Shown here: positions 41,091-44,059 of the stretch, one piece after another
Layout: each line of letters begins with the position of its first letter
Numbering within the stretch: the stretch's first letter is position 1
From: Acanthamoeba sp. SK_2022b
Taxonomy: Eukaryota > Discosea > Longamoebia > Acanthamoebidae
Reading direction: 5' to 3'
Length of the DNA stretch: 64,000 bases
Assembly (NCBI GenBank): GCA_027943245.1
Contig: JANDJZ010000027.1
Span: 62,001-126,000 of the forward strand
The notes under the pieces: generated by a model
Seen by the model: the letters and a program-made list of their open reading frames with translations, nothing else
What the model was told of the DNA's origin: nothing
Database searches by the model: none
Position numbers and translations under genes: made by a program

Positions 41091-43594
41091 TCACAGGAAG
41101 ACGTTGGTCTTCTGTTGGATGGTCTTGCGACAGAGCGGGCACTGCGTGGTCTTGTCGCCGCAGGCCTTGCACGAGCACAGGTGGCGACAGGGGAGGAAGA
41201 GCACGCTCTTCTTCTCCGTCCAGCAAACGACGCACTGGCCGTTGGCCTCCTCCTCGCTGGCTTCATCGCCTCTCGGCATGTCGTCGACACCACCTTGCTG
41301 TTCTTCTTCTTGGGCCGCCAGCTCTCGGGCAAGCTGTTCATCAGCTTCTTCCATCTTTCTCCGCTTGATCACTTCGGCTTCTTCATCTTCTTCATCGTCA
41401 TCATCATCGTCCTTCTTGGACTCTTCTGGGTCCACGTCGTGCTTCCTCTTCTTCTCACCCTCGACTTCCTCTCCTTTATTTGCTTCCTTGTCGGCTACCG
41501 GGCCGGGGAAGAAGGGCTGCTCGACATTGTGAACGGTCTCGAGGAAGGTAAGCTCGTCATTCAGCGAAGGATCTTGGATGACCTCCATCTCCTTCTTGTA
41601 GAACGCTGTAACACCAACAACCATCAAGGTGAGTTGTGCAACGCAGTCTTATGGGCATGAGAGACGTGTGTACCGATGAAGTCGTTGAGCAGCTGGAAGC
41701 GGTTCGCAGGCGTGATGAGCGACAGATAGCGCGTGGGCATGGGCGCAGCAACTGTGGTGGCCATCGAAGGCAGACCCAGCGTCTGGTTCCTCACCTCCAG
41801 ATATGGCCTGATAAAGTCGGTGTAGTAGACCTGCAACACAAAGGCAAAGGTGAGTCTAGGGCCGTCAGTGCGACACAACAGTGGGGGGTTCGCGTACAAG
41901 GAGGACAGCCTTCCGGATGCCAACGTCATCAATGTGGCCCTCCTTGAACCGGAGCTGCTTGGTATCAGTTTGCTCGATGCCCAACAAGTTGTCCCACTTG
42001 GACCTGAATGAAAGAAGCTATGAGTAAGCCAAGGCTCTGCGAGAGCAGTGGGCCGCAGAGCCCATGATGAAGGGGTAATTCGTACACGAGCGTGAAAGGG
42101 GTGTCGAGGCCGGCAGGCTCCTTCTGGCCGACCTTGAACAGAAAGAGGCCGCCCCGCGTCTCACCCTTCTCGTTTTGAGTTGAAGGGAAGAGTGTGGAGT
42201 GCTTAGCCTGGCCGCCGGGCTGTAGATTGCTCACCTCGGGCGAGCCGTAACCCGAGTGAAGCTGCCACACGTCAGAGTCGATACCGAGGCTTACGTTGAA
42301 GCCAGTGGGCGTCTGGTTGCAATGGAAAAAGGCATGAGTCTGGGCTGAGGGTTGAGATGAAGTCTGAGAGCTCCCAGGCCACACATACCACGGTGTAATC
42401 GAACTCGTTGTCGATCATCTCCCGGAAGTCCTTGTTGGAGATGACGGTGGCGTAGTTGCAGCCCGGAGTCTTGCTGGTCTCCTCCACGGTGTCACGAGCC
42501 AGGTCCATGCCGATGCCAATGATCGTGGACCACAGCGACACCTCGGAATTCTGCTTGACCGTGGCGATGAACTTTCTCTCGTCCTCTGAACCAGCTTCCA
42601 TATCTGTAGGGCGTAACGAACACCAGTGAGCCGACCAATAGCAATGATATGTGAGCGCATCGCATATTCCTCGTGCAGCATACCGGTGAGGAAGAAGACA
42701 CGACTCGACCTGTTGGGACCCTCCTCGGCCTTGGCAAACATCTTCGTGGCCGCCTTGAAACCTTCACACACAAACGATTGCCAGTTAGGAACGAGGCCTC
42801 AAGAAGAGAGGGACAGCAAAACTGGAGTGCACACCTTCGGTGAGTTCGGTGCCACCACATGCGCGGAGCTTGAGGATGGCCTTCTCCAGACCGACCTTCT
42901 CGATCTCGGCCCACTTGGTCAGCGGCTGCAGCACTGATGCCTTGTTGTTGAAGAGCACCAGGCCGAAGGCGTCGTCATCGCGTAGCTGCGTAAGCAGGGT
43001 AAGCAGGCAGTCCTTGGCTACCTGGAGCTTCTTCTGCCCGCCAGCGCCGACCGACTCGGACTCGTCATCATCGTCGTCGTTGTCGTCGTCGTCTCCGCGG
43101 AAGGTACTGCCCATCGAGCCGGAGATGTCAAGCGCCACCACCAGGTTGAGCGCGGGCCGGTTGCTGTGGCGGCCCTGCGGGTTGGTCTTCATGCCAATGC
43201 CGTCGTACTTGGAGTTGTAGCTTACGCCGACCCAGCAATCCTCGGCCTGTGTGAGCGGGTCACGGGTGTGGGCCTGGGCATAGCGGCACTTGACCTCCTC
43301 GTCCCTCTCCCTGTCACCCGTGATGAAATAGTGCGCGTAGAACGCAGTGTCGTGGGTGCCGGTGTAGGTGATCTCGGGGATTAACTGTGGTTGTTGCTCC
43401 ATTTCCTCGCCGCTGGGCATCGCCTGTGCCTTCGCATAACGTCTCCTGCCACGCTTGTTGGCGATTGCCTGCGGCTTTGCCAACCCACCACCGGCCTTGC
43501 CCTGTTGCTGCTGCTGCTGTTGGGCTGCGGCGGCATACTTGCGCGGCGCCTTCCCACCGACGCTCTTCCTCGCCGTCTGCTTGGTGCGGGCCAT
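41091..43594 (-). CDS. vWA-RING protein with a histone H3 tail-like N-terminus
   Basis: The ATG at 43594 opens MARTKQTARKSVGGKAPRKY. After initiator Met removal, residues 1-18 match the canonical histone H3 tail except Val for Thr11, keeping K4, R8, K9, S10, K14, R17 and K18. A polyQ run and a basic patch (NKRGRRRYAK) follow. The same exon (42835-43594) continues into a von Willebrand A domain with a MIDAS-type motif (ALDISGSMG) and an acidic insert (DDDDNDDDDDESES). Later exons finish the vWA domain, add a beta-rich middle region and an acidic linker, and end in a complete C3HC4 RING (CVVCWTEKKSVLFLPCRHLC ... CGDKTTQCPLCRK). Length is about 690 residues. RING-HC domains of this type act as E3 ubiquitin ligases. 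The H3-like tail may recruit chromatin readers or writers. That role is inference. Confidence 0.88.
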
Positions 43595-43650: not shown

Positions 43651-43658
43651 TATTTATA
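43651..43658 (-). promoter_or_regulatory. TATA box of the H3-tail-like gene
   Basis: On the minus strand the sequence reads TATAAATA inside GGTATAAATACC, 57 bases upstream of the ATG at 43594. This is a canonical spacing for a short 5' UTR. Confidence 0.6.
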
Positions 43659-44059
43659 CCTGGCCTAGGCTTCGGCGAAAGGGGTGGCGGTGGCATTTTT
43701 CCGGACAGCGAACCCATGCACCCACACCAAGCCGGTGCGCAGCCCAATGAAGAATCACAGGCGACCTTGTCGAGGAGGTCACATGTTGTTCTTTTCCTTT
43801 TGATTCTTCACACAGCCATTGGGCGAGTTTGTGTTTCTCCCCTCTTGCGCACCCTCGTTCACGCTGGCCTTGACGTAGCTTTGGTTTTTGTTTTGTTTTT
43901 TTTTTTTTTTTGTTAACAAAATGTCGACACCTAAACGCTTTTTGTTCGTCACACAATACAAGATCAACACAGGCCCACGCTCTGGCGTGAAGTGCATGTC
44001 TTTGGCACCCACGCTGTTTATGTACACTATGGTGAGCCTCGGTTGTGGTAATGGGCAGG
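43659..44059. other. Upstream spacer of the H3-tail-like gene, with a bulged inverted repeat
   Basis: Spacer in tandem minus-strand context. GCCCAATG and GAAGAATCA (43742-43757) are inverted at TGATTCTTC (43801-43809) and CATTGGGC (43817-43824), with a 7-nt bulge on one side and a 43-nt loop that includes CACATG. A long T-rich run lies at about 43888-43912. No gene was seen. Confidence 0.5.

Follow-up and report, generated by a model that had tools for sequence, protein, structure and literature searches.

An apparently old imitation of the histone H3 tail at the head of a eukaryotic family of vWA proteins

The gene discussed here lies in a 64,000-nucleotide stretch of Acanthamoeba DNA (the window, by which we mean the whole of the stretch that was analysed), and its vWA-RING product opens with a nearly complete histone H3 tail. 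A profilin encoded by this genome agrees with such a source, since it matches the PDB profilin II chain 1f2k at 1.3e-74 and profilins I/IA at about 1e-67, all three of Acanthamoeba, and the next profilin comes in at 3e-33. An earlier note, made from the sequence alone, took this for a tail copied onto one gene, and here we must part company with it, because the tail turns out to be a trait of a whole eukaryotic family: an H3-like head was found in 72 of the 158 vWA relatives listed, in the strict form MART[KR]QTA in 66, and the idea that it is unique to one gene is rejected. As the related proteins of rotifers, sponges, a fungus and further eukaryotes start alike, the head appears to be a histone imitation of long standing, preserved with care, and not the accident of a single gene. 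The reading that we prefer, with a probability of about 0.55, is that one old fusion followed by selection has left these proteins with an H3-tail decoy or bait, serving for sequestration or ubiquitylation.

The tail and its gene

The N-terminus of the protein, MARTKQTARKSVGGKAPRK, is that of histone H3 residues 1-18 with T11V as the sole difference, and R2, K4, R8, K9, S10, K14, R17 and K18 are all unchanged. When the first 20 residues were compared with PDB sequences by phmmer the best match was histone H3 (E = 2.2e-7), and H3 chains were still matched, at 7e-6 to 4e-5 among the 60 matches listed, when the full 685-residue protein served as the query. Translation and phmmer thus bear out the earlier reading of the tail as H3 1-18 apart from T11V, and in this protein the main modification sites that it had called preserved (K4, R8, K9, S10, K14, R17 and K18) are indeed present. 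A Pfam hmmscan of the 685 residues found no histone fold, and what we have is a protein that copies a histone tail in sequence without being a histone. Nor is the likeness a matter of chance, because a degenerate DNA pattern for MARTKQTAR occurs six times in the 45-Mb genome against none for the reversed-pattern control, the six sites being four H3 or H3-like genes, the vWA-RING gene and one further fusion.

The gene (Table 1) has six GT-AG introns of 67-82 nt as read from the sequence, and its product aligns end to end with that of an orthologue, P0002, at 88% identity. Because a reading frame of 687 codons plus stop (2064 nt) nearly fills the 2096-nt contig of P0002, that contig is most likely a spliced transcript from which introns are absent; it starts at the same methionine and has the same first 20 residues. 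Among the matches listed, 69 of the 72 headed relatives also start there, and the listed proteins of P0122, P0128 and P0137 extend about 23-31 residues before the head, the initial Met being missing in two of these three. The ATG of the tail, at 43594, stands in the context CACACCATGG. There is a second in-frame ATG at 43717, upstream of both the tail ATG and the TATAAATA box, which may have a promoter-like function, and GC3 is 0.46 between the two ATGs, against 0.90 for the tail and 0.78 for the coding sequence. On GC3, the position of the box and the orthologue, the H3-like Met favoured by the earlier note is most likely the true start. Its claim that tail and vWA sit in one uninterrupted exon needs some trimming: exon 1 does hold the tail and the beginning of the vWA, including DxSGS and T249 of the MIDAS, but the vWA ends in exon 3. 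No Pfam match was found for two neighbouring ORF pieces.

Table 1. Features of the vWA-RING gene and of its product, in positions of the window
Feature	Position	Strand	Basis or remark
Whole coding region	41091..43594	(-)	7 exons, 685 aa; one open frame
Exons 1 to 7	43594-42835, 42761-42684, 42603-42389, 42312-42086, 42003-41898, 41830-41674, 41605-41091	(-)	introns placed by hand
TATAAATA box, promoter-like	43651-43658	(-)	64 nt 5' of the ATG; read from sequence
H3 tail mimic: Met + H3 residues 1-18 (T11V) + Tyr, MARTKQTARKSVGGKAPRKY	43535..43594	(-)	translation; phmmer
Disordered linker, residues 20-76: Ala/poly-Gln, then GKAGGGLAKP...NKRGRRR	43367..43537	(-)	pLDDT of orthologue model
vWA, residues about 150-340, exons 1-3	42422..43147	(-)	Pfam VWA_2 E 1.3e-13, VWA E 2.4e-10; above cut-off
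Beta-sandwich and helical part after the vWA, residues about 341-545	41514..42421	(-)	
Charged linker, residues about 546-636: basic clusters KKRKHD and KRRK, acidic runs	41241..41513	(-)	from translation
C-terminal RING (C3HC4_3), residues 637-679; protein ends ...NVFL	41112..41240	(-)	Pfam E 3.6e-13

In a model of the orthologue, pLDDT lies below 50 over residues 1-61, which are predicted to be disordered, and the H3 tail is predicted to be exposed and flexible. The vWA that follows has an intact MIDAS (D156-x-S158-x-S160, T249 and D280), whose residues are invariant in the 20-sequence alignment A2, and DxSGS was found in 73 of 73 headed proteins; a fold search gave a match to 4fx5, in match lists dominated by the single vWA domain. 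The basic clusters of the charged linker may act as a nuclear signal. As to the RING, it scores 49.5 bits against a cut-off of 27 for PF13920, so that the coupling of tail to RING proposed earlier stands, and its best PDB match is the IAP-type RING of BIRC3/cIAP2 (1.3e-9); the whole looks like a putative RING-type E3 ubiquitin ligase.

Ancestry of the head and its upkeep

Two protein searches, with 120 of 403 and 120 of 381 matches listed, yielded the 158 distinct vWA proteins, and as candidates were collected with tail words as well as vWA words, the sample is biased towards headed relatives. The named carriers of the head are bdelloid rotifers (Rotaria, Adineta), the sponges Corticium candelabrum and Sycon ciliatum and the fungus Endogone, and many others are eukaryotic transcripts or metagenome records without a name; the protein of the window has the MART[KR]QTA-type head joined to the vWA scaffold of the family. 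Headless relatives make up 86 of the 158 among the matches listed, 83 of them prokaryote-like by name or start, and because headless prokaryotic proteins outnumber the headed ones that the searches drew, any headless eukaryotic relatives just as similar ought to have turned up as well. A search with the tail alone had 120 of its 813 matches listed, and these comprised seven members of the H3-headed vWA family and 113 proteins with a core-histone Pfam domain.

Our tree has 84 rows (61 headed, three headless eukaryotic and 20 prokaryotic, the last drawn from the 83 prokaryote-like headless proteins), with 12 rotifer-like headed rows, similar to others and picked by eye, omitted. The eukaryotic clade of 61 headed and three headless rows is divided from the 20 prokaryotic ones by a split with support of 100/100. 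Those three exceptions look N-terminally incomplete: P0035 is without an initial Met, P0131 has 335 residues, and P0127 starts at a Met that aligns to one in the interior of the headed P0041. On the prokaryotic side, A[RK]T[KR]QTA is encoded nowhere in the 80 loci kept of at least 157 found, and the matches in these loci start between query residues 36 and 144, in many cases near 70-80 and in none within the tail; no viral relatives were found among 50 pattern matches in viral_contigs.

The simplest account would be a single gain of the H3 head at the base of the eukaryotic clade. Repeated fusion of H3 to vWA is formally conceivable as well; a second gene in the same genome shows that fusions of the H3 tail can recur. 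That fusion lies on contig C694 (G000:C694:21243 downward, (-); L006; L104 5744-4646) and has four exons and 288 residues, beginning with MARTKQTARKSTGGMAPRKP..., which is H3 1-18 with K14M; a zinc finger of the PARP/ligase type comes next (PF00645, E 2.6e-14).

That the source of the head was H3 itself is suggested by those relatives that retain H3 up to about residues 42-57. Here similarity to histones was scored against 300 shuffles, none of which did as well in P0041 (H3 similarity as far as position 42), P0026 (into the high 50s, with a gap), P0040 (from residue 35 to beyond 52) or P0045 and P0043 (a retained stretch around 40-52), and in P0026 the Pfam histone model also aligns at residues 7-55 with E 7e-5, below the cut-off. 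In the U-box branch many proteins retain QLATK, with similarity to about residue 26. Three members, P0045, P0043 and P0029, moreover carry a stretch of the H4 tail after the H3 head and before the vWA (0 of 300 shuffles as good in each); that of P0045 is GLGKGGAKRHRKVLRDNI, which we take to be identical to H4 9-26, with a near copy in P0043 and a shorter one in P0029. The H4 score of P0046 is borderline (3 of 300), and H2A and H2B tails were seen in 0 of 73 heads at a threshold of 3 or fewer shuffles of 300. In our own protein the basic linker bears a weak likeness to H4, equalled by 13 of 300 shuffles (105 of 300 in the orthologue P0002), which is not significant, and we claim no H4 tail for it; the idea is kept alive because this protein and P0002 are sister to the seven-row clade in which the clear H4 tails occur (nine rows together, support 99/90).

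Selection seems to have kept a close watch over the head. Across the 61 headed rows, H3 positions 1-18 require on average 5.2 changes per column on the tree, against 19.1 for the 368 well-filled columns of the vWA core and 21.0 for positions 19-23, so that change in the tail is slower than in the core by a factor of nearly four, and sequences compared in pairs are on average 81% identical over the tail against 36% over the core. Within the tail, constraint is strongest at A1-R8 and fades towards K18: T3, Q5 and A7 show no change at all in the 61 rows, R2, T6 and R8 one each and K4 six, and the counts at K9, T11, K14, P16 and K18 rise to 11, 11, 9, 10 and 20, which means that not every mark site is guarded. 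The earlier note had regarded orthologues without the tail, or with random residues at K4, K9 and K14, as speaking against it, and in this respect the outcome is mostly favourable, with K at position 4 in 53 of the 61 rows (R in five, Q in three), but not wholly so, given that position 14 is something other than K in 11 rows and that position 9 is Leu, Val, Met, Phe or Cys in eight and Gln in one.

The changes at position 9 have a pattern of their own. Scored as K/R, hydrophobic or other, it changes class five times on the tree, and six of the eight hydrophobic or Cys rows fall within one seven-row clade. The eight are P0003, P0026, P0029, P0036, P0040, P0043, P0044 and P0045, and the rest of the head is mostly intact in them, less so in P0043; the protein of the window retains K9.

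Some other variants were noticed along the way. P0042 has three KQTARK-type repeats at its C-terminal end (residues 691-709), P0125 has an extra H3-like motif, RTKQTARR, near residue 632, and the rotifer-type paralogues P0030, P0033 and P0037 have decayed heads (MGHTQQTACKS...) in which R2, K4 and R8 are lost.

The age of the tail can also be judged from its codons. The genome has three near-identical H3 genes, on contigs C86, C256 and C1002. A divergent H3-like gene at G000:C734:20001 (L002) reads MLATKAAQVVVPMAGGIKKPHRYRPG..., and its frame ends early, perhaps at an intron. Comparison with any one of these four genes, H3 or H3-like, shows synonymous differences at 9 or 10 of the 17 codons that specify identical residues, AGC against TCG for serine among them, and random choice from the usage of the vWA-RING gene itself would lead one to expect means of 7.7-9.8. 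That count rejects, for this gene, a recent transfer of the tail from one of the genome's own H3 genes, whether by gene conversion or by exon shuffling, and since the tail is slow relative to the core and its codons are randomised against the genome's H3 genes, it is well supported that the tail is old and has been kept by selection at the protein level.

What the head may do

The mechanism that we would propose starts long ago in an early eukaryote, where an H3 N-terminus was fused, in the simplest case a single time, to a vWA scaffold of bacterial type, the first 17 residues or so being held since then by selection on the protein. The product would display a flexible H3 tail outside the nucleosome, on a vWA scaffold accompanied in most members by a RING or U-box, and removal of the initiator Met would give this tail a free N-terminal alanine. 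Such a diffusible tail could serve as decoy or bait at which PHD, chromo, SET, LSD1-like or haspin-like proteins dock, to be sequestered or, where the member has an E3 module as the protein of the window does, ubiquitylated. Ancestry and selection of the head are the well-supported part of this scheme; removal of Met, binding, ubiquitylation and inhibition are steps that we infer.

Ubiquitylation is in any case unlikely to be the universal function, because at least 19 of the 72 headed proteins match neither of the E3 modules that Pfam recognises in the others, zf-C3HC4_3 (31 of 72) and U-box (22 of 72), although one of those 19, P0101, has another RING. The E3 module varies more than the tail does across the H3-headed vWA family.

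Hydrophobic replacement of a lysine is a feature of inhibitory K-to-M histones, and the members with Leu, Val, Met, Phe or Cys in place of K9 might act as pseudosubstrate inhibitors of H3K9 methyltransferases, which by this analogy is a fair hypothesis. Possible partners are certainly encoded: counted exon by exon, the genome has 48 chromo, 30 PHD and one Pre-SET matches to candidate H3-tail binders. Part of the chromo matches score identically, as repeated copies would, and these perhaps lie in mobile elements. The sole Pre-SET match is at G000:C434:48680-48859, and one SUV39-type H3K9 methyltransferase is perhaps to be considered as a partner. The decoy or bait is favoured because so many possible binders of the H3 tail are encoded and because the PHD of UHRF1 is described as reading free ARTK and VRTK ends, the VRTK of PAF15 being read as the ARTK of H3 (PMC7060239). 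More tentatively, and at slightly worse than even odds, we would extend this to an ancient family, present in many eukaryotes, of soluble nucleosome-tail decoys (H3, in some cases with H4) that titrate, inhibit or ubiquitylate readers and writers, the K9-replaced subset being natural counterparts of K-to-M histones and the H3-tail fusion having been reused on a DNA-break zinc finger.

Other roles can of course be imagined for such a tail. It might not be bait at all and instead act as a modification sensor, marked by histone acetyl- and methyltransferases and kinases so as to switch the vWA-E3 protein in cis, and thereby reporting on chromatin enzymes or on the supply of acetyl-CoA or SAM. The broad retention of R2, K4, R8 and S10 and a tail predicted to be flexible and adjoining a large scaffold would suit this, but K9 and K14, where acetylation would be expected, drift more than A1-R8, and a hydrophobic residue or Cys at position 9 in eight of 61 rows sits badly with it, so that we regard a sensor as unlikely, if far from absurd.

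We are more sceptical of an address tag, in which histone importins or carriers of the HAT1/NASP type would read the H3 (and in some members H4) tail and bring the protein to the nucleus or to new histones. The tails of H3 and H4 are known import signals, and the mixed H3/H4 heads would make sense as a path to newly synthesised histones, given the clear H4 stretch in three members; basic import signals tolerate change, however, and yet T3, Q5 and A7 are invariant in 61 rows, and a loose pattern already finds a basic cluster beyond the core in 49 of 73 headed proteins.

A long shot, in our judgement, is a DNA-damage or stress factor, the tail bringing both the vWA-E3 protein and the H3-tail/zf-PARP protein to damaged chromatin by way of damage-linked H3 binders. 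The zinc finger of the second fusion speaks for it, as do genes of Adineta vaga annotated as von Willebrand factor that are reported to be over-expressed after radiation, FUN_006836 with a log2 fold change of 3.53 (PMC10809525, PMC12220480). Two further vWA genes, FUN_009967 and FUN_010278, appear there among DNA-repair genes and are under-expressed in flight (PMC12220480). Against it, the rotifer genes of these sources are tied to the H3-headed family by annotation only, and in Pfam the protein of the window is without a repair domain. An artefact, finally, be it a wrong start codon, an assembly chimera with an H3 gene or sheer coincidence, is scarcely credible and in the main refuted by conservation, since for all that there is an in-frame ATG upstream, the tail codons differ from those of every H3 gene found in the genome, P0002 and most of the 72 headed relatives share the start, and introns and GC3 back the gene model.

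Known systems and what the family adds to them

From amoebae to sponges and rotifers the tail has been kept as the rest diverged to about 36% identity, which points to a conserved function, most likely in chromatin control. The natural variants (K4R, K9 to L, M, V, F or C, changes at K14, and H3+H4 heads) offer a tool for dissecting H3-tail interactions off the nucleosome, and antibodies to H3 marks, like peptide searches, may catch H3-headed vWA proteins. If the reading as a family of decoys is true, free histone-tail mimics would be an old cellular layer of chromatin regulation and not mainly a viral trick.

As to the scaffold, its counterparts are bacterial and archaeal proteins named 'Ca-activated chloride channel family' or 'VWA domain-containing protein', which have the same vWA and following part, at about 26-35% identity over query residues roughly 70-550 in the better matches; many start with signal- or lipoprotein-like segments, and among the matches listed no H3 tail was seen in them, their listed Pfam domains being without RING or U-box. 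Plant E3 ligases of the RING-vWA type (WAV3/RGLG) unite vWA and RING in one protein, as the protein of the window does, and we know of none with an H3 tail. With histone H3 the protein has residues 1-18 in common, and some relatives continue to about 42-57, but by Pfam it has no histone fold.

Histone mimicry is known so far from viruses and from a small number of host proteins, in the form of short motifs. Influenza NS1 and SARS-CoV-2 ORF8 are viral H3-tail mimics that capture H3 binders, and viral H3 mimics are short and are not known to place the H3 N-terminus at the start of the protein; the H3-headed vWA family, by contrast, is cellular. Short H3 mimics also occur in host proteins, among them the VRTK of PAF15 and EHMT1/2 targets such as LIG1 and WIZ, which are likewise non-histone proteins that offer an H3-like peptide to H3 binders, and in PAF15 the mimic is also N-terminal and stands beside ubiquitin signalling (PMC7060239, PMC10611923). 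These are short motifs in single proteins, whereas the family has 17 of 18 H3 residues, family-wide, on a vWA that often comes with its own RING or U-box. We found no published account of it in the open-access literature, and though histone mimicry itself is known, what is new is a conserved cellular family that carries a near-complete H3 tail, in some members joined by that of H4, on a vWA scaffold to which an E3 module may or may not be attached.
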